From positions 1 to 36,863 of IMG/VR virus record IMGVR_UViG_3300009128_000062: a stretch of 36,863 nucleotides of DNA; one strand, given 5' to 3'. The DNA comes from a virus. The position numbers were made by a program, and so were the translations under genes. Under the pieces are notes generated by a model, which saw only the letters and a program-made list of their open reading frames with translations, was not told the DNA's origin and did not search any database. Position 1 is the stretch's first letter. Every line of letters starts with the position of its first letter. Positions 2,247-36,863 of this stretch are shown piece by piece.

Positions 2247-2628
2247 TTTTTCTACTGTAGCCATTGCAAGCCCCGGGAAGTATGCCCAGTTAGAAAAGGG
2301 TACAAGACTACCATGGGATGGCTGGTGCTTCGATGGTCAAGCTATGGCAACGATCGTAGCAGACAAAGAACTGGCAGAAGAGAAATGCAGACTGAGAACC
2401 CTTGAGGAGCTTGAGAAACAAAAAGCAGCATTCGACTTGCAGATAGGACAACTTCAGGCAACTCTGGACTACGAAGTGAAAACGAAAGAGACTACAATCC
2501 AAGCTCTCAAGAAAGAGAATCTGGAACTAGAAGAAGTTATTATTCACAATAACAAGTTCGGCTGGGTAGGACCATCAGCAATCGGCTTCATCGTCGGAGG
2601 CTTAACAATATTTTTAATAACATTATGA
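2194..2628 (+). CDS. Exported coiled-coil protein with C-terminal membrane segment
   Basis: A 144-residue protein whose start overlaps the previous gene by 53 bases. It has a signal peptide (NLKTCLVLLLTLSFSTVAIA, probable signal peptidase I cut after AIA), a globular piece with LPWDGWCFDGQ, a coiled coil (about residues 60-118) and a C-terminal hydrophobic segment (about 125-143). There is no lipobox cysteine after the signal, so it is neither a normal Rz1 lipoprotein nor a typical unimolecular spanin. The fold-back order resembles envelope-spanning lysis proteins. Either ATG 2194 or ATG 2203 could be used; AAGGAT at about 2180 serves both. The function is unknown and a lysis-cassette role is inferred. 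Confidence 0.5.
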   Translation: MRSMINLKTCLVLLLTLSFSTVAIASPGKYAQLEKGTRLPWDGWCFDGQAMATIVADKELAEEKCRLRTLEELEKQKAAFDLQIGQLQATLDYEVKTKETTIQALKKENLELEEVIIHNNKFGWVGPSAIGFIVGGLTIFLITL

Positions 2629-2996
2629 AGAAGAAAGACTTAAACGAAATAGCCAAAATAGAAAAGGCGATAAAGGAGAAATACGGAGATGAAGCGATTC
2701 AAAACCCTAAAAGACATTGGGACGAGGAAAAGGAGAAGAAATATCTGGAAGACCTCAAAACTTTCCACGAAAGGCCTAGGCGCACAAAGAAAACAAAAGA
2801 ATTAAAGGGCGCCCTTGTAAAGGAACGAAAATCTTCTCATGGGGTCGACCGCACTTGCCCGGTCTGTGAATCATATTCCTTTTCAGGGCGAGATGATCTT
2901 TATATGACAAAGTTCGAATGTTGTTTCGAATGTTATATTCAATACATCGAAGGTCGAGAAGAACGATGGAAATCGGGCTGGAGACCAAACAACTAA
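2625..2996 (+). CDS. Hypothetical zinc-finger protein
   Basis: A 123-residue hydrophilic protein. The first 70 residues are highly charged and probably helical. The C-terminal part has a Cys cluster, CPVCESYSF followed about 20 residues later by CCFECY, the pattern of a four-cysteine zinc ribbon. The ATG overlaps the stop of the preceding gene (ATGA). I do not recognise a named family. A zinc-binding, nucleic-acid or protein-interaction role is the simplest reading. Its place just before the terminase block does not settle the function. Confidence 0.6.
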   Translation: MKKKDLNEIAKIEKAIKEKYGDEAIQNPKRHWDEEKEKKYLEDLKTFHERPRRTKKTKELKGALVKERKSSHGVDRTCPVCESYSFSGRDDLYMTKFECCFECYIQYIEGREERWKSGWRPNN

Positions 2997-3023
2997 CTAT
3001 TTATTATTAGCAAACTATTTATT
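2997..3023 (+). promoter_or_regulatory. Tandem CTATTTATT elements, candidate late promoter
   Basis: CTATTTATT occurs at 2997-3005 and again at 3015-3023, 18 bases apart, in the 45-base gap before the gene at 3042. The same CTATTTA core recurs in the gaps before several other gene blocks. Its position and AT-rich form suggest a phage late promoter -10 box, analogous to T4 TATAAATA but different in sequence. No transcription data are available, so this is a motif-level inference. Confidence 0.4.
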
Positions 3024-3041
3024 GCAAGAGGATTTTAAACA

Positions 3042-3530
3042 ATGGCAACAACTTTAGAAATTATTGATTGTATCTCTCAGGTACTAGCAAACACTTATGA
3101 TGGCGCTCTAGACGAGAGTGGAGAACCAATCAAGATCGGTCTCCGAAGGGAGGAGGGAAACCCACTCATAGATAATAGAGTTATGGACGGCTTCGGCGCA
3201 TACATCTCTGGTGACCGGCTTCACATTAAGTATCATGCAGAAATTCCACTTAAGGAAGTTCACTCTAACGGATTCGAAAGTGACATGGAGTCTATGGTTG
3301 AAAAGGTAAAGTCTTTCATCCAGAAAGAATACAAGAAGATCAAAAAGAACGCGCTCACATTGACAGAGCCAAGTGAAGTAGATGTGCTTGTAGAATACAT
3401 CTCCAGAATCAGGACAAGTGTGAAGGTCCACAAGTGCTATAGAATCAGTGCAATACCTCATGAATGTGGCGAAAAAGAAACCGACCCAGCCTTTGAAAAG
3501 TTCACACAACTCAGCGGCATAAAGTCGTAA
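3042..3530 (+). CDS. Conserved-looking hypothetical protein upstream of terminase
   Basis: A 162-residue soluble protein starting at an ATG with an AGAGGA ribosome binding site at about 3027. It contains a basic stretch (KIGLRREEGNP), a mixed alpha/beta middle (GFGAYISGDRLHIKYHAE) and a lysine-rich helix (about residues 82-104). No catalytic motif, signal peptide or membrane segment is seen. It sits directly before the large terminase, where the small terminase lies in T4. I see no helix-turn-helix and cannot assign it as that subunit. It could be a packaging accessory or a structural protein; the function is unknown. Confidence 0.6.
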   Translation: MATTLEIIDCISQVLANTYDGALDESGEPIKIGLRREEGNPLIDNRVMDGFGAYISGDRLHIKYHAEIPLKEVHSNGFESDMESMVEKVKSFIQKEYKKIKKNALTLTEPSEVDVLVEYISRIRTSVKVHKCYRISAIPHECGEKETDPAFEKFTQLSGIKS

Positions 3531-3539
3531 GAGGGTTAA

Positions 3540-5126
3540 ATGGCAATAAAGCTAACCAAGCAAGAGATAATGAAGGAGATTGTCCGATGTGGCAAGAAAC
3601 CTGAATACTTCATTCACACATATGCAAAAATTACCCACCCAATGAAAGGGCTCATACCTTTTCATTTATATCCATTCCAAAAGGATTTGCTAACCGACTT
3701 CGAGGATCACCGATTTAATGTGATCTTAAAGGCGCGACAACTTGGTATATCCACTGTCACAGCCGCATATGTAGCTTGGATGATGATGTTCCACCGCGAA
3801 AAGAATGTACTTGTAATCGCGACGAAATTTAACACTGCAGCCAACTTGGTAAAGAAAGTAAAGGCGATCATTAAAGCCTTACCAGACTGGCTTTGTATAT
3901 CCAATGTGGACATAGACAATAGAACTTCTTTTGTTCTATCCAATGGCTCACAGATTAAGGCTTCCTCAACTTCAGGTGATGCTGGTCGCTCAGAAGCGTT
4001 GTCGTTGCTTGTTATAGACGAAGCAGCGCACGTAGAAGGCCTCGACGAGTTGTGGATGGGCCTCTACCCTACACTATCGACTGGTGGACGCTGTATCGCA
4101 CTATCTACGCCCAACGGCGTTGGAAACTGGTTTCACAAAATATACACAGAAGCAGATAACAAGGCGAACGATTTTTTTCCCACAAAACTTCCTTGGGACA
4201 TGCACCCGGACAGAAACCAAGATTGGTTCGAAAAAGAAACTAGGAACATGTCTAGAAGAGAGATTGCTCAAGAACTTGAGTGTAACTTCAATATGTCTGG
4301 AGAGACCGTCTTTGCAGCGGAAGACATGGAAACCTACTTGAATATGTCCTGCCCTCCCAAACATAGGACTGGTTTTGACCGCAACCTTTGGATTTGGGAA
4401 GAAAGAAAGCCCGAAAACACGTATCTTATAGCCGCAGACGTAGCAAGAGGTGATGGTAAAGACTACTCAGTGTGTCATGTATTTAAATTAGAAACAATGG
4501 AACTAGTAGCAGAGTATCAAGGAAAGGTAACTCCAGATGTTTTCTCTAGGGTCCTATTTGACGTTGGGCAAGAGTATGGCGGAGGACTCTTGGTCGTAGA
4601 AAATAACTCAGTTGGATATTCTGTGCTTGAAAAGTTGAAAGAAATGAGGTACCCTAATCTATATCATTCAATTAAGTCAACCCATGAGTTTGTAGAAGAG
4701 TATCAAGCAGACCAAATGTCGAACGCTGTTCCTGGTTTCACTACAACTTCAAAGACTAGGCCTCTAATAGTCGCTAAGATGGAAGAATTCATAAGAAACA
4801 ATCTAATTAAGATATATTCTTCCAGGCTTTTGGCTGAAATGAAGACTTTTGTATGGAATAATGGTCGCGCAGAGGCTATGAGATCTTACAATGACGATCT
4901 AATCATGGCCTGTGCAGTCGGATGCTGGGTCAGAGACACAGCGTTAACTGCAAACCAGAGGGATGCAGAATATGCGAAAGCGTTTATTGGTTCGATCACT
5001 AGAAGTGGGAATGAACTAGATACTAGAATAAAAGGTATGATTGGTACCAACAAGTTAAAGATGCAAGATAGCATGAACAAACATCACAAGGCGACAACCG
5101 ACTTTCCGTGGTTGTTTAAGGGATAA
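3540..5126 (+). CDS. 17: Terminase large subunit, T4 gp17-like
   Basis: A 528-residue DNA-packaging motor. The N-terminal ATPase has the Q-motif-like segment YPFQKDLL (44-51), a variant Walker A KARQLGIST (64-72), Walker B LLVIDE (156-161) and the coupling motif STPNG (189-193). The C-terminal RNase H-like nuclease has the expected acidic residues: D300 in IAADVARGDG, E354 in VVENNS, and D452/D453 in SYNDDL. T4 gp17 is 610 residues, so this is a somewhat short but complete version. It docks on the portal encoded three bases downstream, translocates DNA and makes the headful cut. The start is supported by GAGGG just upstream. Confidence 0.95.
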   Translation: MAIKLTKQEIMKEIVRCGKKPEYFIHTYAKITHPMKGLIPFHLYPFQKDLLTDFEDHRFNVILKARQLGISTVTAAYVAWMMMFHREKNVLVIATKFNTAANLVKKVKAIIKALPDWLCISNVDIDNRTSFVLSNGSQIKASSTSGDAGRSEALSLLVIDEAAHVEGLDELWMGLYPTLSTGGRCIALSTPNGVGNWFHKIYTEADNKANDFFPTKLPWDMHPDRNQDWFEKETRNMSRREIAQELECNFNMSGETVFAAEDMETYLNMSCPPKHRTGFDRNLWIWEERKPENTYLIAADVARGDGKDYSVCHVFKLETMELVAEYQGKVTPDVFSRVLFDVGQEYGGGLLVVENNSVGYSVLEKLKEMRYPNLYHSIKSTHEFVEEYQADQMSNAVPGFTTTSKTRPLIVAKMEEFIRNNLIKIYSSRLLAEMKTFVWNNGRAEAMRSYNDDLIMACAVGCWVRDTALTANQRDAEYAKAFIGSITRSGNELDTRIKGMIGTNKLKMQDSMNKHHKATTDFPWLFKG

Positions 5127-5129
5127 AAA

Positions 5130-7130
5130 ATGGCAAGCAAAAATAAAAACAATACAAGAAACCCACAGAGTCTACTCTTTAGGAGACTAACAAGGTTGCT
5201 TTCTGGACCTCTTACGCAATATAGGACACAAAACAACCACAGATTAAGAAGAATTGACCTAGACAGATATGCATCTAAGTTTACTTCCGCATCAGGAAAA
5301 GATTTTAAGAAGACAGCATATAACCCCTATGATAATTTGAACGCAAATATAATGGCATCACAGGCTCGCACCGAACGCTATGTAGATTTCGATCAAATGG
5401 AGTATACACCGGAAATCGCCTCAGCGCTTGATATTTATGCTGATGAAATGACCACATATTCTTCTCTGACTCCAATGCTTAAGGTTGATTGTGAGAATGA
5501 AGAGATAAAAGCAATATTAGAATCATTATATTCTAACGTTTTGAACATCGAGCACAATTTATTTTCCTGGTGTCGTACAATGTGCAAGTATGGTGATTTT
5601 TTCTTGTACCTTGACCTGGATGATTCCTTGGGAGTCACTTCTGTCATTGGGTTACCATCTCAAGAAATGGAAAGATTAGAGGGAGAAGACAAATCAAATC
5701 CGAATTATGTACAATATCAATGGAATTCAGCCGGATTAACGTTTGAAAATTGGCAAGTTGGCCACTTCAGGATCTTGGGACAAGACAAATATAACCCATA
5801 TGGCACATCCGTACTTGAGCCGGCTAGAAGAATCTGGAGACAACTTACCTTACTTGAAGATGCGATGATGGCTTATCGAATAGTCAGATCGCCAGAGCGC
5901 CGCGCATTCTATATCGACGTCGGAAGCATCGCACCGCAAGATGTAGAGCAATATATGCAGAAAGTTATGACTAACATGAAGCGAAACCAGGTAGTCGACG
6001 CAGATACTGGCAGAGTTGACCTTAGATACAACCCTCTTTCTGTGGAAGAGGATTATTTTATCCCTGTCCGAGGAAACTCCTCAACAAAAATTGAACCCAT
6101 TGCAGGTGGAAAGTACACAGGAGACATCGACGACGTTAAATACTTGAGAGATAAGCTCTTTTCAGCGTTAAAAGTACCTGCAGCATATATTTCGTCTGAT
6201 GGTGAAAAGGCAATGGAAGATAAAACTACATTGGCTCAAAAAGATATCAGATTCGCTAGAACCATTCAACGACTACAGAGGTCGATAATAACAGAATTGG
6301 AGAAGATAGGAATTGTGCACCTTTATACTCTCGGATATAGAGACGAAGACTTGGTAGGTTTCACTTGTACCCTTAACAATCCTTCAAAGATTGCAGAGAT
6401 GCAGGAACTTGAACACTGGAAAACGCGTTTCGACATTGCCGGCAACGCAACAGAGGGTTTCTTTTCAAAGCAGTGGTTAGCCAAGACACTATTTGGCATG
6501 TCTGATGATGAATTTATTCGAAACCGACGCGAGATGTTCTATGACAAGCGCTACGAAGCTGCTCTAGAGACTGCTGGCGAAGCGGAACAAGCAGAGATGA
6601 CCGCAGGTCTAGACGCAGGAGTCGACGACTTGGACGTTGGCGGCGACCTTGGAGAGCCAGGCGGCGTAGGCGCAGTGGGGTCAGAGCCAGAACTTGGAGC
6701 ACCAACTGATGCTGCAGATCTAGGGGCAGCAGATCTAGGCGGCGGAGACGCTGGAGGTGCACCTGAGGAGGGAGATCTCTTGGCAGCCCCACCCGGTAAG
6801 AGAGAGGACAGTAAGGGTAGAACTACGACAGAGAAGTCTCATGGCTGGTACAGCCCCCGCGCACTATCTGCCGGCGGTGACAGAAGAAAATCTTCAGGTC
6901 CACGAAAGAAGAATATGAATAGAGCCGCCTCTCCGGAAACAGGAACGACGAGAAAGATGTTCCCTGGAATGGGAGAACTTACAGGTCTTGCAAAAGCAAC
7001 CAGTATTTACGAGGGACAAACGACTAATTATAAAGTAGAGGAGACAAAGATCCTCAAAGAACAGAAAGAGTTAGACGCTCTTTTCAAAAGCCTAAAAGCG
7101 AGGAACGACAAGAATGAGACTGAAACATAA
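5130..7130 (+). CDS. 20: Portal vertex protein, T4 gp20-like, with long C-terminal tail
   Basis: A 666-residue portal that would form the dodecameric ring through which DNA enters and to which the neck attaches. The region around FDQMEYTPEIASALDIYADE and the segment FSALKVPAAYISSDGEKAMEDK are typical of gp20-type portals. T4 gp20 is 524 residues. The extra length is at the C-terminus: a Gly/Asp/Ala/Glu-rich acidic stretch (about residues 485-560), then a basic linker rich in Arg, Lys, Ser and Thr, then a short helical end. Both tail parts look disordered. It follows terminase by three bases and overlaps the next gene by 17. Confidence 0.93.
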   Translation: MASKNKNNTRNPQSLLFRRLTRLLSGPLTQYRTQNNHRLRRIDLDRYASKFTSASGKDFKKTAYNPYDNLNANIMASQARTERYVDFDQMEYTPEIASALDIYADEMTTYSSLTPMLKVDCENEEIKAILESLYSNVLNIEHNLFSWCRTMCKYGDFFLYLDLDDSLGVTSVIGLPSQEMERLEGEDKSNPNYVQYQWNSAGLTFENWQVGHFRILGQDKYNPYGTSVLEPARRIWRQLTLLEDAMMAYRIVRSPERRAFYIDVGSIAPQDVEQYMQKVMTNMKRNQVVDADTGRVDLRYNPLSVEEDYFIPVRGNSSTKIEPIAGGKYTGDIDDVKYLRDKLFSALKVPAAYISSDGEKAMEDKTTLAQKDIRFARTIQRLQRSIITELEKIGIVHLYTLGYRDEDLVGFTCTLNNPSKIAEMQELEHWKTRFDIAGNATEGFFSKQWLAKTLFGMSDDEFIRNRREMFYDKRYEAALETAGEAEQAEMTAGLDAGVDDLDVGGDLGEPGGVGAVGSEPELGAPTDAADLGAADLGGGDAGGAPEEGDLLAAPPGKREDSKGRTTTEKSHGWYSPRALSAGGDRRKSSGPRKKNMNRAASPETGTTRKMFPGMGELTGLAKATSIYEGQTTNYKVEETKILKEQKELDALFKSLKARNDKNETET

Positions 7131-7944
7131 TAAAAAAAGAAACACAGCATTTGTTTATGAGGCGCTCGTAAGAGAACTTACAGAGTCTGTTGTAAAAAAC
7201 AACAAGAACAAGCAAAACAAAATTGTTTCTATTATAAAAGACCATTTCACTGGAGATTCAGTTCTAAAAGAGGAGTTGGAACTTTATAAATCAATTTATG
7301 AGACGAGAGACATAAACAAGAACACTGCAGAGAAGATTGTAGTGGAAGTCAAGGATAGATATAACTCATTAGACAAGAAAAAACTTTTTCAAGAACAGTC
7401 CGCATTGATAAATAAGATTAACAAAACTTTATCGAAAAATATATTCAGCAACTTTGTCCCCAATTATAAAAGCATAGCGTCTGTATATTCGATATTTCAA
7501 CACGCGCTGCCTGTTAAGGACAGGGTTCTACTAGAAGAAAACATTGTTGAGCAAATGTCATCTTCAGTTGAAACAAAACAAGAAGTCCAACAACCAATAG
7601 ACTCGATAGTATATAGTACTTTTGTTTCTAAGTTTAACGATGAATACTCAGAAGTGTTGAGCGAAAACCAAAAGAATTTGCTTGGAAGGTACATTTCCTC
7701 TTTTGCTGACAATGGCGTTGAACTCAAGGTTTATCTTAATGAAGAAATTGGAAGGCTGAAAGAGGGACTAAATCAGGCTCGCAACGCGCCATCAGCCGAA
7801 ACAAATTCCGAACTTAAAGATAAGATAAACAAGATATACAACATTCTAGATGAAACTAAGAATAGAGAGATAGACACAGAAACATTAGAACTGGTCCTGA
7901 ACACTCAAGGACTACTAGAAGAGATAAATAGCCATGACGATTGA
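7114..7944 (+). CDS. Head-module hypothetical protein between portal and protease
   Basis: A 276-residue, largely helical, Lys/Asn/Glu-rich protein beginning MRLKHNKKRNTAFVYEALVR. It overlaps the end of the portal gene by 17 bases, with GCGAGGA about nine bases before the ATG, so translation is likely coupled. In T4 the genes between portal and protease (67, 68) encode prohead core proteins. This gene occupies that position but is longer, and I see no sequence that proves the relationship. No signal, membrane segment or catalytic motif is visible. A prohead-core or portal-associated role is an inference from position. Confidence 0.6.
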   Translation: MRLKHNKKRNTAFVYEALVRELTESVVKNNKNKQNKIVSIIKDHFTGDSVLKEELELYKSIYETRDINKNTAEKIVVEVKDRYNSLDKKKLFQEQSALINKINKTLSKNIFSNFVPNYKSIASVYSIFQHALPVKDRVLLEENIVEQMSSSVETKQEVQQPIDSIVYSTFVSKFNDEYSEVLSENQKNLLGRYISSFADNGVELKVYLNEEIGRLKEGLNQARNAPSAETNSELKDKINKIYNILDETKNREIDTETLELVLNTQGLLEEINSHDD

Positions 7945-24291: not shown

Positions 24292-27132
24292 ATGGCAGCT
24301 AGAAAATTTAAGTTCGTATCCCCCGGAGTATTTTTAAAAGAGATTGACAATTCACAACTTCCAAAACTACCAGGAAACAACGGACCAGTCATTATAGGCA
24401 GAACACGAAAAGGGCCCGCACTAAACCCCGTCAAGGTTAATTCATATGCGGATTTCGTCGAGGTATTCGGGGAACCAATCCCTGGCGGACATGGAGAAGA
24501 TGTCTGGAGAGAGGGCAACGGCCTCCTCGCAACAGCGTACGCGTCGTATGCAGCGAAGGCTTACTTTGCGGCAGACATACAATCACCAGTTACAATGATT
24601 AGGCTTTTGGGTGTTCAAGGCGACAACGCTACATCTGCCGCGGCAGCACAGCCAGGATGGACAGTTAATAATGCGTATGCATTGGTTACTTACGAATCCG
24701 GAAGCATGCTTGCAGGAACAGTTACTAATCATAACGTCTCTGCGGTCTTCTACTTTAAAGACGCAACTACTTCGGTGCGTTTGTTAGGTTCTGCTCCTAA
24801 TGGTGACCTCATGGCTGCCAATACTGGTTCAGGCCTAAGAGGCGCCACACCAGGTAATGTCGTAAAGACAAATTCGGACGGAAAATTCCGCCTTTTGCTG
24901 TCCTCTAGTACAGAAGTCACCAAAGAAGTCGTAGTAGATTTCACCAAGGGAAGTAAAAATTACATAAGAAGTGTCCTCAATACCAACCCAGTGTTGACAA
25001 ACACTACTATATCATACATAACCACAGGGACTCTTGCTGACAAATATTGGCTCGGTGAGACATTCGACTCGCATGCCGCCTCCGGATCTCAAAAACTCGG
25101 ATACATGATAAAATTACAAGACACAACATATGATTTTGCAGATTATACCCATGAAGCTTCAGCAGCTAGATCTGGGTGGATCATCAGCCAGCATCAAGGC
25201 ACCGCAGCAGAATACGCTCCACTGAGTCAGCAAAGATTATTCAGGTTGATAGCTTTATCTGAAGGTGAGCAGCCATCTAGAGACATTGTTGTGTCGATAG
25301 AGGATATAAGAATATCGGAAACAGGAGATGTGGATCCATATGGCTCATTTTCTGTCGTAGTTAAGAGAAAGATCGGCACCCGCTTAGAGGTAGTGGAATC
25401 TTACCCAGGATGTAATCTAAACCCGAATTCAGAGAACTATGTTGCTCGCAGAGTTGGTGATCAATACTTTCAGTGGTCATCCGTAGAAAAGAGAAACAAA
25501 GTTTACGGAAACTACACCAACAACTCTCAACACATTCGAGTGGAAATGGAAGCCAATACCGATCAGGGCTTGATTTCTCCATCAAATATACCATTTGGCT
25601 TCTTGGGCCCAATCGTTCCAAAGAGACACACCAAAGACGCTACTAACGGTAGAGTTGTAATAGGCGCCACTGACAGCTTTGTAGAAGAGAGTCAAGTGTA
25701 CTCTTCTCTCGGCGCTGATATCGATGGTACATTTAACATCATTTGGCCATCAACCCCAACAACATTCTCAGGGTCTGTCAGGGGCCTAGACTATTTTGGA
25801 GCGGCCATATACAAGAAGTCTGGTTTAAATTTAACTTCAGAGCTTGATCCAGCACTTCCAGATTATAACAGAAAAATGCCAACAGGCTTGACAACCGCTC
25901 AAACCACAGGCGAAGTAGATGCTCGAACAGAGCATGCTTATGTGTTCAGTCTTGACGATGTTAGAATAGAGGGTCATAGCCTTAGTCCAACATCTACAGC
26001 AAACGTAACCGCGGTATACCATAAGAGCGGATCTAGAGCAGATAGTACATCTTTTACTGCTGTGTCTAGCTCAACAGGCATATCGGACATGTTAGAATTA
26101 GGTTTTAATAAATTCCAGATGCCACTATGTGGTGGGTTTGATGGTGTTAACATTACCGAGCCAGATCCGTTTGCAAATCGTATACTGACCGCTGGTGGTT
26201 CAACTTCTGATTCGTATGCATTTGCATCTGTCGATAGAGCAATTGAGCTTATCAAGGATCCAGAGATGATTGAGCACAATATTGCAGCTATGCCAGGGAT
26301 CACAAACGCATCTCTTACTTCTAAGTTGGTAGATAAGTGTGAATCCAGAGCAGACAGTTTGGCAGTCATCGATTTACCAGATGTATATAAGCCACCCCAA
26401 GAATTAAAGTGTACCTCTTTCAGTGACAGGTTGGGTACTACACCAGAAGCAGCTGCAAAGGCTCTCAAGGCACGACAGATTAATTCTTCATATGGTGCAA
26501 CCTATTATCCATGGGTCAAGGTTAGAGATAACGAGAATTCTAGAGACATTTGGGTACCACCTTCAGTTGTAGCTCTCGGGGTTATGGCCTACACAGAGCA
26601 GGCAAGCGAAGTTTGGTTTGCACCTGCAGGTTTTAACCGCGGCGGCCTGAATGAGGGTAACGCAGGAATTCCAGTCTTGCAGGCTTCTGAACAACTTCTT
26701 TCCAAGCAAAGAGATGCTCTTTACGAGTCAAACATTAACCCAATCGCTTCTTTTGTAACAGAAGGTTTGGTAATTTTCGGACAAAAGACACTTCAATCTA
26801 CTCCTTCTGCACTTGACAGAATTAACGTACGTAGATTGCTGATCTTTGTAAAGAAGGAGATCTCCAGAATTGCAAATGGTCTTCTTTTTGACCAGAATGT
26901 ACCAGCTACTTGGAACCGATTTTTAGGTCAGGTTAACCCTTTCTTGCAAAGTGTTAAGACTAGACTTGGTTTATCTGACTTCAAGGTAATCTTGGACAAC
27001 ACAACTACTACACCAGATTTGGTTGATAGAAATGTGATGTATGCTAAGATCTTCTTAAAGCCAGCACGAGCTATTGAGTTTATCGCAGTTGATTTTGTTA
27101 TAACAAATACAGGAGCTTCTTTTGACGATTAG
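24292..27132 (+). CDS. 18: Contractile tail sheath protein, T4 gp18-like
   Basis: A 946-residue sheath subunit. The N-terminus FVSPGVFLKEIDNSQLP is the standard start of T4-type sheath proteins. The conserved C-terminal domain includes AGFNRGGLNEG, FVTEGLVIFGQKTLQ, RLLIFVKKEI and a final strand with PARAIEFIAVDFVIT, which forms the inter-subunit mesh. T4 gp18 is 659 residues; the extra length lies in the middle (about residues 110-640), probably in the outer protruding domains. AAGGAG precedes the ATG. The tube gene follows after 48 bases, the usual sheath-tube pair. Contraction of this protein drives the tube through the cell envelope. Confidence 0.93.
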   Translation: MAARKFKFVSPGVFLKEIDNSQLPKLPGNNGPVIIGRTRKGPALNPVKVNSYADFVEVFGEPIPGGHGEDVWREGNGLLATAYASYAAKAYFAADIQSPVTMIRLLGVQGDNATSAAAAQPGWTVNNAYALVTYESGSMLAGTVTNHNVSAVFYFKDATTSVRLLGSAPNGDLMAANTGSGLRGATPGNVVKTNSDGKFRLLLSSSTEVTKEVVVDFTKGSKNYIRSVLNTNPVLTNTTISYITTGTLADKYWLGETFDSHAASGSQKLGYMIKLQDTTYDFADYTHEASAARSGWIISQHQGTAAEYAPLSQQRLFRLIALSEGEQPSRDIVVSIEDIRISETGDVDPYGSFSVVVKRKIGTRLEVVESYPGCNLNPNSENYVARRVGDQYFQWSSVEKRNKVYGNYTNNSQHIRVEMEANTDQGLISPSNIPFGFLGPIVPKRHTKDATNGRVVIGATDSFVEESQVYSSLGADIDGTFNIIWPSTPTTFSGSVRGLDYFGAAIYKKSGLNLTSELDPALPDYNRKMPTGLTTAQTTGEVDARTEHAYVFSLDDVRIEGHSLSPTSTANVTAVYHKSGSRADSTSFTAVSSSTGISDMLELGFNKFQMPLCGGFDGVNITEPDPFANRILTAGGSTSDSYAFASVDRAIELIKDPEMIEHNIAAMPGITNASLTSKLVDKCESRADSLAVIDLPDVYKPPQELKCTSFSDRLGTTPEAAAKALKARQINSSYGATYYPWVKVRDNENSRDIWVPPSVVALGVMAYTEQASEVWFAPAGFNRGGLNEGNAGIPVLQASEQLLSKQRDALYESNINPIASFVTEGLVIFGQKTLQSTPSALDRINVRRLLIFVKKEISRIANGLLFDQNVPATWNRFLGQVNPFLQSVKTRLGLSDFKVILDNTTTTPDLVDRNVMYAKIFLKPARAIEFIAVDFVITNTGASFDD

Positions 27133-31526: not shown

Positions 31527-33828
31527 TAAAAAAGATAGATCCTTTAACGAGCAGGCCTATGTGATGTGGCATGAGTTCGTCCGCGGAAAACCAAACACTA
31601 AGAGCAATTTAGCAAAAGGTAAGTCCAGTAAAAGCGGAATCACACTTCATAAGATAAAAGGAAATTATGAACCTTCTAACTTCATATCTAAAACGCTTAA
31701 CAAAAAGAACAAGCTGAGTACATATAAGAGTCTTTTAGATCTTGAGACTCACAAACTGTCTTCTCTGGTTCCGGAAGTGAAATTGTCTAAGATTGTAGAC
31801 AACAAATACACACCTTTCTATTTTCCCGTCGCGGCAGAGAATGCAACAATAACATCTCTTCTACAACCCGGGTCTTCTCTTGGAGGCACAGGCATCCGAA
31901 GCTTCGGGGTTGAGTTTGTCGGAAAAGATTTCTTCACGAGAGATAAAACGATAAAATGTAGTTTGTCTATATTCGTAGACTCCTTGGAGAACGTTTTTAA
32001 GGATCCTCCTACTGGCTATGCACCACTTGCGGAGTTGTTTACTATATCGAGAAAAAGACATGTGTCCCTTAGAGAGGGATTATCAAAAGAAGTCTCAAGT
32101 GATCAGATTAACAAGGCGTCGTCTCATGAAATCGCCGCAAATTTGGCATATTCGATCGACAACTCTTCAGGCATTTTCAGCAACCGAGAAAAACAGGCAA
32201 TCCAAAACACTTCTCTATCAATAAGGATGACATATACTGGACACAACATATCTATTAGTCAAGATGGCACAGCGACTATAGACGTCACCTTCATCGGCCG
32301 ACTGTCAGGAGTCTTAGATGATCCGATGTACAATATTCTGTCTGACTCCGCTCAAATAATCGCTCTCGGAGACATACAGAAGATGAAAGATCAAGAGAGA
32401 GAATCGCAGAGTCCTGATTCGACTAAAGTCAAGGAAGAACTAGCAAAGCTAGATGCCAAAATCAGAAAAAGCGTACGAGGTATTTTTAAAAAACACATTC
32501 AAATGCTCCGCGAAGACGGGAAAATACACAGCCTTACGGTTAAGCAAAAAGATTTTGATGAGTACGCTGCTTTCTTTGATGGGTCCACGGAAGAGTCAAC
32601 CAAAAAGGTAAAGAACCAGACACCAAAGCCAGAAAAGAAGACTGCCACCAAGCCGGCTTCGGGACCAAGCAGCGAATCACCAGATCCGAAAAAACCCGAA
32701 AACATCGATCGCAAATCCATCACAGTGGAATATGTCCACGCAGGAGATTTTGTCCAAGCGATCATCGCAGGAACAAAAAAATCACTAGAGGAGTCTATAG
32801 CTGAGATCTCTGAAAGAGTACAGTCATCTAAACTTGCCCCGGGAAAAGCAAAAGCTATTGAGGAGCCAATAAAAAAAGCACTGGAACAACTTAAAACGTT
32901 CAAAGTTCTGTTTGGTCAGATGCCCATAGTTTCCAGTGATAGAAAATATATTATGATCAACCTGGCTGACATCCCGGTCTCAATGAAGGTTGTGAGTGAA
33001 TATATTTTCGAAAACATAGAACAAAAACATGTTGCACGACTCAGTTTGAACACTTTTCTAGACGACTTTGTGGGGAAGGTGCTTCCCGCGGCGTTGACCA
33101 AACACTTGTATAAGGATGCACCAAAGTTGCCATCCCGCATGGAGGTCAAGTCGATCAACGTCACTGCACCAAACAGTAAAAAGCTAGCAAAATCCTCAAA
33201 CGACGTAAACATTAAAGACCTTCCAGACTTCCTAAAGAGTGTCAACGCGAACAGGAAAAAGGAGGATGATGCAGACTACATGATTGTCTATACAGATATA
33301 TCAGAGAAGTCCAGTGCAGGTCTAAGGGGTAAGGAAGATCAGGATACCAGTAACGGCGTCTATCACTTTAACTTATCTAAGGACAGGGGGATGGTTAAAT
33401 CCATAAGCTTTGCTCAAAACACTATAAAGTATCGTAAAGAAGCATTGATGCTGGAATCTGTATCGCTGTATGATGAGTTGAAGCTTCCATATAACGCAAA
33501 CATTGAGATGTTTGGTAACGGCCTTTTCCTTCCGGGTTCGATGATATATATAAATCCTTCTAGTCTAGGCCTCGGTGACCCAAGAAACAAGAGGTCTGCA
33601 GCAGCACGCCTGGGTATCGGAGGGTACTATGTTGTTATATCCGTTAGCACAACCTTTAATGGAGGAAAGTTGACAACCACGCTCACCACCCAGCATCATG
33701 ATTGGGCTAGCGAAGACTCTCGTATTTCCACAGCAGAGGAATTGAGCGATACGGGTATATTCGAGAAGGCAAAGAGGAAGGTTGAAAGGCGAACCGGACA
33801 TAAATCACCGATAGAGAGGTTGTTCTAA
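31519..33828 (+). CDS. Large baseplate or hub structural protein candidate
   Basis: A 769-residue protein. An N-terminal domain (about 90-280) has beta-rich segments, including GGTGIRSFGVEFVGKDFF and IRMTYTGHNISISQDGTATI. A Lys/Pro/Ser-rich linker (about 365-400) and a helical part lead to a C-terminal domain (about 600-740) with SVSLYDELKLPYNANIEMFG, NGLFLPGSMIYINPSS and GIGGYYVVISVSTTFNGGKL. The C-terminal domain resembles hub-type proteins of contractile tails, where the tail tip is built. It overlaps the gp53-like gene by eight bases and the next gene by one. A T4 equivalent (for example gp27) is not established. Confidence 0.6.
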   Translation: MTDKKDRSFNEQAYVMWHEFVRGKPNTKSNLAKGKSSKSGITLHKIKGNYEPSNFISKTLNKKNKLSTYKSLLDLETHKLSSLVPEVKLSKIVDNKYTPFYFPVAAENATITSLLQPGSSLGGTGIRSFGVEFVGKDFFTRDKTIKCSLSIFVDSLENVFKDPPTGYAPLAELFTISRKRHVSLREGLSKEVSSDQINKASSHEIAANLAYSIDNSSGIFSNREKQAIQNTSLSIRMTYTGHNISISQDGTATIDVTFIGRLSGVLDDPMYNILSDSAQIIALGDIQKMKDQERESQSPDSTKVKEELAKLDAKIRKSVRGIFKKHIQMLREDGKIHSLTVKQKDFDEYAAFFDGSTEESTKKVKNQTPKPEKKTATKPASGPSSESPDPKKPENIDRKSITVEYVHAGDFVQAIIAGTKKSLEESIAEISERVQSSKLAPGKAKAIEEPIKKALEQLKTFKVLFGQMPIVSSDRKYIMINLADIPVSMKVVSEYIFENIEQKHVARLSLNTFLDDFVGKVLPAALTKHLYKDAPKLPSRMEVKSINVTAPNSKKLAKSSNDVNIKDLPDFLKSVNANRKKEDDADYMIVYTDISEKSSAGLRGKEDQDTSNGVYHFNLSKDRGMVKSISFAQNTIKYRKEALMLESVSLYDELKLPYNANIEMFGNGLFLPGSMIYINPSSLGLGDPRNKRSAAARLGIGGYYVVISVSTTFNGGKLTTTLTTQHHDWASEDSRISTAEELSDTGIFEKAKRKVERRTGHKSPIERLF

Positions 33829-34967
33829 TGGCTTTTAATTTTAAAGGAGGGGATTCTCAAAATTTTAGAGAATCCTTTAAGGATAGAAAGGAATATAAAG
33901 AGAATGCAAAATTAGAAGGAGTTCTTTTCCTGGATACTTGGTATCAGTATTCAAATTATGGACTACTAAATGCAAATTTCGAACCGGTGGTTCTGAACAA
34001 CGATGAACTCAACGGTAATTTGACAGAGTTTGGGGACTACACAGAACCCGGGCTAGCTGCAGCCTCTTTTGTCACGCGCGCATTTCAGAACTTTAGGGAG
34101 TACTATGTGGCGAAAACGCAACTTGCAAGGTTGGATTTCCCCCAGTTCATCCAAACCGCTGTTCCAAAGTATGCTCATGACGACTTTGACACCGTATATA
34201 ACGCCTACATTATGGGTATGATTAACACCTATGCAGACTTGGTACAAGAGGACATGAGCAGTTTTGAGGACTTTAATTCACTGTTGTTTAATCTGATAGA
34301 ATCCAACATAGAGAAGTTTCCAATAACTCGAAGTGGGTTCCTACTATCTTCAGAATGCCCAATCTCGGTCTCGGGGCTCACCATTGAACTTGCAGAATTG
34401 CAATACTACTCAGACGCTGAAAAGTCTCAGCTATTCAATTCACACGAATTTAAGTGTTTTGCTGAACTCGCCACATCAATGGGGTTTTATTTGGACAAGA
34501 ACGCACCTTGGAGACTAATCGCAAACCTAGAATCCCCCGTCATGAAAGGATACATTTCAGACTATCAACCAAATACCACTACGGAGAATGTTTTGAATAA
34601 GACGTTTAGACAAAAAACACATTATGAAGACATATCGAGTGTTTATTATTTTTATGCAAGCGTTTTGTCGACGATATATAATCGCCTCGACATACAGGCA
34701 GCGCCATCCTTCAATCAAGAATTTTTGATTTCTGAAACCTTGAAAATAAGAATGCTTGAGACAGGAATAGATATGAAGAAGTTTCCGACACTAAACAGGC
34801 AAGTTATTGATTTACACAGAGTCTATGCACCACGTTTTCCAGAGAACCCTCTAAAGCAAGCATCCGGAAAGATCGGAAAAATTTGTTCTGAAAAATTAAA
34901 AGAAATTTATCTTGCAAAATCCCAAATAAACAGTTATGATAAGACGACACTAAAGGATTATCGTTGA
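33828..34967 (+). CDS. Hypothetical protein at end of tail module
   Basis: A 379-residue soluble protein, rich in Asn, Phe, Tyr and Leu, mostly helical. Landmarks are VLFLDTWYQYSNYGLLN, FVTRAFQNFREYYVAKTQLA and a Tyr-rich stretch YEDISSVYYFYASVLSTIYNRLD. There is no signal, membrane segment or catalytic motif. It is coupled to the upstream structural gene (TAATG) and to the downstream polymerase (TTGA). I do not recognise the family. Context suggests a virion component, but the operon then turns to replication genes, so the role is open. Confidence 0.6.
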   Translation: MAFNFKGGDSQNFRESFKDRKEYKENAKLEGVLFLDTWYQYSNYGLLNANFEPVVLNNDELNGNLTEFGDYTEPGLAAASFVTRAFQNFREYYVAKTQLARLDFPQFIQTAVPKYAHDDFDTVYNAYIMGMINTYADLVQEDMSSFEDFNSLLFNLIESNIEKFPITRSGFLLSSECPISVSGLTIELAELQYYSDAEKSQLFNSHEFKCFAELATSMGFYLDKNAPWRLIANLESPVMKGYISDYQPNTTTENVLNKTFRQKTHYEDISSVYYFYASVLSTIYNRLDIQAAPSFNQEFLISETLKIRMLETGIDMKKFPTLNRQVIDLHRVYAPRFPENPLKQASGKIGKICSEKLKEIYLAKSQINSYDKTTLKDYR

Positions 34968-36094
34968 TTTTACAGACATTAGATATAAAAGATAACTGCA
35001 AAGGCATTTTTCACAGAGGCACGTTTCTATTCGATGGTGCCGAAGAGACAGCCAACCGATATTTTCTTGCTTGGAAGCATTCGCCCATGCTAGAGGACGA
35101 GAATTTTCGATATCTTTTCCTTTCTTTAAAGGACGAAGACCTCTCATCTTACTCTACAGACCCTGAGCTATATGAGGAGTGTAAAAAGAAGATGTTGGCC
35201 CACGCCAAAGCCGCAACTGCAGCAAAGATAGACCTGACAGAGGAGTGTTTCTTTGATTTGCTTCCCGAACATCAATTAACAAAGTGGTTCAAAATGAGAG
35301 AGCAGGCACTACACTCTCTCCATAAAGCTACCAAACGCGAAGACGATTATGATATTCTGCATAAGGCACATGTCCTGACATCTGAGATTGCGCGCCAAGA
35401 CCTGATGTTCGAGGGCAAGAAAGGTCGAATACAATACAACATCTTTGGCTCGGCAACGGGAAGACTAACCACCAAGAAGGGTTCAGTACCTATTATGACT
35501 CTAAAGAAGGAGGATAGGCATAAAATCACCCCTCAGAATGATGCTTTCGTGGAGCTAGATCTAAACGCAGCAGAGGTAAGAACGCTGATGGCCCTGTCAG
35601 GCCGAGAACAGCCCCCAGGTGACATTCATGAGTGGGTCGTGGAGAATGTGTTCAATGGCGAGATAGAACGGTCAAAAGCGAAGGTAGAATTGTTTGCGTG
35701 GCTGTATAATCCTTCGAACTCCAAAAGTCGATTCGACCAAATTTTTTCGCGGACAATTTTCCGAGATTTTTTTGCCCCTGAGGAAGAAGTGCTTACAACG
35801 CCATTTGGACGAAGACTTGCCGTGGATGAAAGAAAAGCACAGAATTACTTGCTTCAATCGACGACATCTGATATAGTTATACAAAACGCATACAAGATTA
35901 TGAAGATGCTAAAGGGCAAAAAGTCCAAAATAGCGTTTACACTGCACGATTCGATTATCCTTGACATGGATAAAAAAGATGCTATAATGTTAAGAGATAT
36001 AAAGGAGCAATTCGAGGAAACACCCTGGGGCCCCTTTAAGAGTACATGTAAAATCGGCAAAACATTCGGCCACCTAAAGGATTTAGTGATTTGA
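34964..36094 (+). CDS. polA: Family A DNA polymerase, polymerase domain only
   Basis: A 376-residue PolA-type polymerase lacking both exonuclease domains. The thumb-palm region shows FGSATGRLTT (161-170), motif A VELDLNAAEVRTL with D199 and E204, and helix O with R236, K240 and Y248 at the same spacing as R754, K758 and Y766 of E. coli Pol I. It also has TPFGRRLAVDERKAQNYLLQ (about 279-298) and motif C TLHDSIIL. In motif C the catalytic D329 is kept but the usual next Glu is S330. The start is TTG 34964, which overlaps the previous stop as TTGA and has AAAGGA about eight bases upstream. T4 itself uses a family B polymerase. A separate proofreading subunit could be encoded elsewhere. Confidence 0.85.
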   Translation: MILQTLDIKDNCKGIFHRGTFLFDGAEETANRYFLAWKHSPMLEDENFRYLFLSLKDEDLSSYSTDPELYEECKKKMLAHAKAATAAKIDLTEECFFDLLPEHQLTKWFKMREQALHSLHKATKREDDYDILHKAHVLTSEIARQDLMFEGKKGRIQYNIFGSATGRLTTKKGSVPIMTLKKEDRHKITPQNDAFVELDLNAAEVRTLMALSGREQPPGDIHEWVVENVFNGEIERSKAKVELFAWLYNPSNSKSRFDQIFSRTIFRDFFAPEEEVLTTPFGRRLAVDERKAQNYLLQSTTSDIVIQNAYKIMKMLKGKKSKIAFTLHDSIILDMDKKDAIMLRDIKEQFEETPWGPFKSTCKIGKTFGHLKDLVI

Positions 36095-36863
36095 AGACAA
36101 TATTGGGTATAGGCATGGCAGGCAGCAACGTTGTAAGGCAGCTTGGCGAGCATAAAGCATACAAACCATATACGATTTGTACAGAAAACCAGAAAACAAC
36201 GAAATACCACTTCAACCTACCCGAACTCGAAGGACCAGAAGAGTACGAGGCAATGGATATGAAGAAATTAGATAAATGGCTCGGTACAATCGAAAAGAGC
36301 TGCACAATATTTCTTTGTGGAGCATCGAATTCATCAGGTTTGACTTTACGAGCACTGCAATCACTTCACCAGAGGGGTGTAAAAATGGATGTTGTATATT
36401 TCATGCCTGAAATTGAGGTTCTCTCAGAGGAGAAGACACTCAATGAGAGGGCGGTAAGGGGTATATTACAAAACTATGCTCGAAGTGGTTTGTTTGAGAA
36501 AATTTGCCTCGTATCCAACCTTCGGTTGGAGGAAATTGCCGGCTCAACGAATGTGTTTGATTATTATGATCAAATAAACCGAGTATTTACAAGCACTTAC
36601 TATATGCTGGATGTGTTCAAAAACACGAAACCGATTACATCCACATTCAAACGCCCAAAAGAATCCTGCCGTATTACCACTATTGGCTTGGGATCACTAG
36701 AGAATGACGATTTAATGTTTTTTCCTTGCAATCAAGAGGTGGAGGTGGTATACTATTATGGTATCAACGAAGAAAAGTTAAAGACGGAAGAGAACTTGTT
36801 TAGAACAATCACAAACAAAGTAAAATCAAGAATTACAGATGAAACGAAGGTTTCTTTTGGGAT
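36091..36863 (+). CDS. Divergent FtsZ/tubulin-superfamily-like protein, 3' partial
   Basis: 257 residues are visible before the window ends. The order of motifs follows FtsZ: an N-terminal nucleotide loop ILGIGMAGSNVV (4-15), YTICTENQKT (27-36) at the place of the FtsZ NTDxQ loop, and FLCGASNSSG (74-83) at the place of the GGGTGTG signature. YFMPE (103-107) follows, then CLVSNLRLEEIAG (139-151) like the IPNDKLLE segment. A helix FDYYDQINRVF (156-166) sits where FtsZ has its AFxxADxVL helix. A C-terminal segment with IGLGS and a final SFG resembles the second FtsZ domain. The start is TTG, overlapping the polymerase stop as TTGA, with AAAGGA upstream. Key glycines of the signature are partly replaced, so GTPase activity is uncertain. 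Confidence 0.55.
   Translation, partial: MKTILGIGMAGSNVVRQLGEHKAYKPYTICTENQKTTKYHFNLPELEGPEEYEAMDMKKLDKWLGTIEKSCTIFLCGASNSSGLTLRALQSLHQRGVKMDVVYFMPEIEVLSEEKTLNERAVRGILQNYARSGLFEKICLVSNLRLEEIAGSTNVFDYYDQINRVFTSTYYMLDVFKNTKPITSTFKRPKESCRITTIGLGSLENDDLMFFPCNQEVEVVYYYGINEEKLKTEENLFRTITNKVKSRITDETKVSFG

Follow-up and report, generated by a model that had tools for sequence, protein, structure and literature searches.

We report that a partial gene at the 3' end of a viral contig encodes a protein that, judged by the predicted fold of two of its relatives, almost certainly belongs to the tubulin/FtsZ superfamily, and that this gene is one of the core genes in a large clade of T4-like phages, uncultured and mostly marine. 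Loop T1 and the two base-contacting asparagines are kept, and the aspartate motif of loop T7 and helix H8 are lost throughout the family. Moreover, the gene lies in a cassette of replication genes and very probably has a role in phage DNA replication, a tie that is drawn from gene order alone; as the most likely reading of our data we see a tubulin homologue that would bind nucleotide, hydrolyse it poorly and scaffold phage replication.

Most of what is known of the tubulin superfamily in phages comes from nucleus-forming jumbo phages and from a few plasmid-like ones, in which DNA is moved or centred, and the members already known are PhuZ, TubZ and a few FtsZ-named proteins in metagenomic phages. 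Our data extend the superfamily to hundreds of T4-like phages, uncultured and mostly marine, whose replication cassette almost always includes such a gene, in a family that is invisible to current profile libraries and is without the catalytic loop underlying the dynamics of the superfamily. These findings suggest that viral DNA replication has taken on a protein of cytoskeletal type as a regular component. No report of a large family lacking T7 and H8 and fixed in a replication cassette was found in the literature searched (open-licence papers only). If the protein does work with polymerase, SSB and RecA, the tubulin fold would here have been put to a new use, and the protein, being short (approximately 285 aa) and expressible, would then allow a test of how far a tubulin can be stripped and of what function is left after the loss of hydrolysis.

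Source contig and gene limits

The window, i.e. the whole stretch of DNA analysed, is a linear IMG/VR virus contig of 36,863 bases that carries a T4-like structural module with terminase, portal, protease, major head protein, sheath, tube and baseplate genes. The tail sheath gene (window positions 24292-27132) is unusually long (946 aa), and its homology to sheath proteins is confined to the C-terminal part. At the 3' end of the contig lie, in order, p379, for which no profile match was found in PHROG or Pfam, a family A DNA polymerase and the tubulin-like gene (Table 1).

The tubulin-like open reading frame (36091-36861, plus strand) has 257 codons and no stop before the contig end, being open through the last base, and the initial annotation was right in describing the gene as truncated by the window edge. 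Its C-terminal SFG ending has to be abandoned: full-length relatives have 275-292 aa, i.e. approximately 20-35 residues beyond the window product, and because they read on past this point as SFGIYPTQYE..., SFG marks the window edge rather than the C-terminus. The gene does start inside the polymerase stop codon, as had been noted, with the start TTG (36091-36093) overlapping the stop TGA (36092-36094). Among the 26 nearest-group sequences compared, nearly all have the polA stop overlapping or abutting the tubulin-like start (TTGA or ATGA), and nearly all likewise have a GGA-containing ribosome-binding site. The reading frame is a real gene, far beyond chance, and is under strong purifying selection (dN/dS 0.03-0.10 versus close relatives, with substitutions mostly at third codon positions).

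Table 1. Features at the 3' end of the window. Residue numbers refer to the tubulin-like protein and residue percentages are weighted family counts.
Feature	Position	Strand	Remarks
p379	33828..34967	+	precedes polA at almost all loci whose flank is long enough
Exonuclease-less family A DNA polymerase, related to divPolA1	34964..36094	+	stop overlaps tubulin-like start
Ribosome-binding site aaagga (36076-36081) and stop/start overlap TTGA (36091-36094)	36076..36094	+
Tubulin/FtsZ-fold gene, partial	36091..36863	+	257 of ~285 codons; 3' end lost at contig edge
T1 loop GIGMAGSNVV, residues 6-15	36106..36135	+	G8 invariant, A10 76%, G11 81%, N13 63%
T4-equivalent CGASNSSG, residues 76-83, replacing GGGTGTG	36316..36339	+	G77 invariant, S/T82 86%, G83 65%
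T5-equivalent PEIEVLSE, residues 106-113	36406..36429	+	from model and family counts
RSG, residues 131-133, end of H5	36481..36489	+	R131 and S132 100%, G133 87%
T6 with equivalent of base-binding Asn, N143	36514..36519	+	N143 92%; aligned to FtsZ T6 Asn
Core helix H7, invariant Y158 and N163	36553..36621	+	Y158 100%, N163 96%
T7-equivalent loop NTKPITSTFKRPKESCR	36622..36672	+	without helix H8 and without conserved N-x-D-x-x-D

Predicted fold and superfamily membership

Structures were predicted with AlphaFold for two relatives in place of the truncated window protein, L005, which is full-length and 91% identical to the window protein, and L044, which is 36% identical to L005. The models (pLDDT 93 and pTM 0.91 for L005; pLDDT 92 and pTM 0.89 for L044) have the two-domain tubulin fold, with a nucleotide-binding Rossmann domain, the core helix H7 and a C-terminal domain. 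A Foldseek search of the PDB with L005 gave FtsZ as all 50 matches listed (best E 3.8e-13, probability 1.00). The Z scores on the DALI scale (VIA) were 23.8 for CetZ, 23.3 for TubZ, 21.4 for FtsZ and approximately 21 for tubulin with L005 (residues 1-285), and 24.1, 22.4 and 21.5 for CetZ, TubZ and FtsZ, respectively, with L044. For both models the first 50 PDB structures listed all belong to the tubulin superfamily; CetZ, TubZ, FtsZ and tubulin are among the structural matches listed and PhuZ is not, which does not speak against a match to PhuZ. The initial annotation had proposed a distant member of the FtsZ/tubulin superfamily, to be checked by an AlphaFold model compared by DALI and by profile-profile search, and the structural comparison of both relatives agrees with this proposal.

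The profile-profile search bore it out in part. The family was aligned with cellular FtsZ using hhalign and is colinear over 241 columns with E 0.0022 (range 0.002-0.003), the reversed controls giving E 0.24 and 0.34; an unrelated control pair, UvsX versus the family, gave E 0.0024 over 60 columns. Because this control pair scored similarly, we take the sequence evidence as supporting and let the fold comparison carry the claim. Searches with the family against the Pfam, PHROG and NCBIfam profiles gave sub-threshold noise only, the PDB sequence search gave no significant match and the profile alignment with PhuZ gave no useful match. The Pfam Tubulin profile PF00091, used as a detection test (the superfamily is defined by fold rather than by profile), was found in 0/10 phage contigs at E ≤ 10 versus 13/14 control genomes.

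The protein might instead be an unrelated Rossmann-type protein with FtsZ-like motifs that have arisen by chance, in line with the marginal profile signal to FtsZ, the similar score of the UvsX control and weak Pfam matches to other Rossmann models. We consider this hardly credible: two high-confidence models align with tubulin-superfamily structures over nearly the whole chain, including the C-terminal domain, and the chance reading would appear to be refuted already as far as prediction can do so.

Conserved and lost elements

On the basis of the L005 model and the FtsZ profile alignment the elements follow in the order S1-T1-H1-S2-(shortened T2/T3 region)-S4-T4-H4-S5-T5-H5-S6-T6-H6-H7-loop-S7-S8-H10-S9-S10, where helix H2 is missing or shortened and H9 is not predicted. 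The six motifs previously listed in FtsZ order are all present (GIGMAGSNVV, ICTENQKT, LCGASNSSG, YFMPE, VSNLRLEE and FDYYDQINRVF), and the earlier assignments of T1, T4, T5, T6 and H7 agree with the predicted secondary structure and the colinear FtsZ alignment. The T1 family pattern is GxGxAG(C/S)N, and N163 in H7 was assigned by profile alignment as the equivalent of FtsZ D187 and beta-tubulin N226. In T4 the family consensus is G(A/S)(S/G)x(I/S/V)(S/T)(G/A), in which the first G is the only invariant position and the GGGTG(T/S)G signature is not found; hence the alteration of the signature loop to GASNSSG, recognised from the window alone, holds family-wide, and it could change nucleotide binding.

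The loss of T7 and H8, which the initial annotation did not mention, is weightier than the change in T4. In FtsZ of Staphylococcus aureus the T7 residues are N208, D210 and D213, and the aspartates hold the catalytic water on the GTP of the next subunit (PMC8936486). The T7 region was checked in 140 aligned sequences, where no acid pair is conserved in columns 172-196, and helix H8 is absent from both models. The positions that vary least across the family include Q127, R131 and S132 (each 1.00 in the 140 sequences) and the tyrosines of the YYYGINEE segment at S8-H10; Q127 and RSG are expected to lie on the face opposite the nucleotide. Finally, the family members end within approximately 20 residues of strand S10.

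Distribution and the replication cassette

Relatives in viral contigs numbered 86 in a first scan (31-92% identity among the matches listed), 495 in a second and at least 597 in a third, of IMG/VR; none was found among 50,697 phage records. When loci were sampled by way of polA, the tubulin-like gene was present at 75/77, and at the remaining two the contig leaves just 9 and 782 bases after polA. Each of 12 large contigs (144-204 kb) has exactly one copy. The sole match in a bacterial genome (L082; CP070664.1, a WOR-3 MAG) might have pointed to a host or a prophage, a reading that we rejected. In it a phage replication cassette (2514-7873) lies inside a 'complete' MAG chromosome, and since this phage stretch sits between runs of N it looks like a scaffolding error; the assembly is probably a chimera, and the MAG should therefore not be used to infer a host.

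The order p379 - polA - tubulin-like gene - gp32-like SSB - RecA/UvsX is kept in approximately 80 loci, as far as the contigs extend (SSB was assigned by PHROG and Pfam, RecA by Pfam), and further downstream there are genes for an exonuclease, a DnaB-like helicase, ribonucleotide reductase and thymidylate synthase. In many of the more distant loci polA and the tubulin-like gene are separated by other small genes, and the linkage to SSB stays. A gene often seen among these, in a distant group, encodes a protein of approximately 100-107 aa with the motif KLVRDRIPEII (L044 5678-5998, and at the same place in L042, L045, L050, L054, L065, L071 and L076); by eye it resembles a MazG-type house-cleaning pyrophosphohydrolase, and Pfam gave no match.

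The polymerase to which the gene had been described as coupled is confirmed as a family A enzyme (Pfam DNA_pol_A, E 1.5e-11; PHROG DNA polymerase, 1.7e-20), and the description can be refined in that it is exonuclease-less and probably accessory, in phages that also carry a family C polymerase. In an alignment that includes divPolA1 of Immutovirus, to which it has 29% identity over half the query, the palm motifs are retained and the exonuclease domain is absent. divPolA1 is known from 14 phages, Immutovirus and its relatives, where it lies beside replication genes and where an additional regular DNA polymerase is also carried (PMC11348598). Going by sequence, the enzyme studied here would likewise qualify as divPolA1, with the palm kept, the exonuclease lost, replication genes downstream and an additional regular polymerase: all 12 large contigs have one PolA and one family C polymerase, the latter approximately 13-18 kb from the tubulin-like gene, and no PolB was found in them. 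The family C polymerase has approximately 1,145 aa and lies within approximately 20 kb of the accessory PolA (G001 C1 111616-112419, with equivalents in the 11 other contigs).

Proposed function and alternatives

The mechanism we propose, and hold tentatively, is that a compact and highly divergent protein of the tubulin/FtsZ superfamily binds guanine nucleotide in the usual pocket and would use its conserved lower face (RSG, the end of H7 and YYYGINEE) either to self-associate head to tail or to contact replication partners. GTP hydrolysis would be slow or absent, and a stable, nucleotide-gated scaffold may thereby organise or position the phage replication complexes (accessory PolA, SSB and RecA), as opposed to a dynamic spindle like that of PhuZ; nucleotide binding, assembly and weak hydrolysis are what we infer from the elements kept and lost. 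At somewhat less than even confidence, this marine phage clade would use a catalytically disabled tubulin with a structural or regulatory task at the replication fork or site, its synthesis being matched to that of the accessory polymerase. Helices H2 and H8 take part in, or lie by, the longitudinal contact of FtsZ, and because they are missing or shortened here canonical protofilaments may not form.

The nearest alternative, which we regard as rather unlikely, is a non-polymerising replisome factor, in which the tubulin fold was kept for sensing nucleotide or binding protein and acts, as a monomer or small oligomer, alongside the accessory PolA, e.g. as a processivity or regulatory subunit. 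The overlap between the polA stop and the tubulin-like start in the nearest group, the strict co-occurrence with polA and the loss of H2 and H8 would fit such a factor, as would the result that no T4-type gp45 clamp was found in the 12 contigs, albeit in a weak test. However, the top-face loops T1 and T5 and the lower-face elements are both conserved above average, as head-to-tail assembly would need, and in many distant members genes intervene between polA and the tubulin-like gene with the SSB linkage intact.

Next comes a dynamic, cytomotive filament resembling those of PhuZ and TubZ, which would position or segregate the DNA of the phage and hydrolyse GTP through residues other than the T7 aspartates. 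The fold is close to those of TubZ and CetZ, phage tubulins are known to centre DNA (PMC4244570), and invariant residues on the lower face, R131 for example, could take over the catalytic role. Neither a conserved T7 acid pair in the 140 sequences nor H8 in either model is there to support such a filament, and the family is without a long C-terminal tail like that which stabilises the phiKZ filaments (PMC3678025); moreover, the phiKZ nuclear shell protein gp54 (chimallin) had no match in the 12 large contigs in an insensitive single-sequence search without positive control, and altogether we find this reading improbable. Still less probable, to the point where we give it little weight, is a protein that blocks division of the host cell by mimicking FtsZ and capping or poisoning its filaments. 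A largely kept upper face and a broken lower catalytic face could be the design expected of a chain terminator, but the identity to FtsZ in structural alignments is only 10-15%, and the gene has its fixed place among the replication genes, not in a variable region for host takeover.

Comparison with known systems

FtsZ has the loop order, the T1 GxGxAG and the positions of the T6 Asn and the H7 Asn/Asp in common with the family, which differs from it in having GAxxxS(G) in place of GGGTGTG, a shortened H2, no H8 or T7 motif and no linker or C-terminal peptide. The best structural match by Z is archaeal CetZ (PDB 3zid and 4b45), with approximately 255-265 residues aligned; compared with CetZ the identity is 12-17%, and the family is shorter and is without T7/H8 and the canonical T4. 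A precedent within the superfamily for the loss of recognisable filament elements in the S6-T7 region is FtsZl1 (Makarova and Koonin 2010, PMC2875224). That family is encoded by cells and, together with one other, has been linked to membrane remodelling, and no similarity to FtsZ-tubulin is seen in its C-terminal domain (PMC2875224), whereas the family described here is phage-borne and its C-terminal domain keeps the tubulin topology.

Among mobile elements, Bacillus plasmid TubZ and the PhuZ/TubZ proteins of phiKZ-like jumbo phages are superfamily members as the family is. PhuZ of phiKZ has acidic residues in the T7 region (LDLMDI, by eye), where the family has no conserved aspartate pair, and uses a C-terminal tail in filament assembly, where the family ends approximately 20 residues after S10. 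PhuZ is found in nucleus-forming phages, whereas the tubulin-like gene is found in T4-like phages and is locked into the polA-SSB-RecA cassette. In type III partition tubZ lies beside a centromere and the gene for the adaptor TubR; the neighbours of the tubulin-like gene are polA, SSB and RecA.

The divPolA1 cassette of Immutovirus (PMC11348598), a cultured Flavobacterium phage, has an exonuclease-less PolA followed by SSB, RecA, exonuclease and DnaB as in the family loci, and two unrelated small genes at the position of the tubulin-like gene; the published text on divPolA1 makes no mention of tubulin. Its gp002 and gp003 were considered as a split tubulin and rejected on reading their sequences. 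Because Immutovirus keeps polA - SSB - RecA without a tubulin-like gene, a cassette of the divPolA1 type can work without one. In the next phage by terminase, Microcystis phage Mel-JY01, no such gene was found just upstream of the SSB candidate. Finally, the best viral structural match is an FtsZ-named protein of an uncultured Caudovirales phage (A0A6J5RW92; 452 aa), with TM 0.76 on the query and 12% identity.
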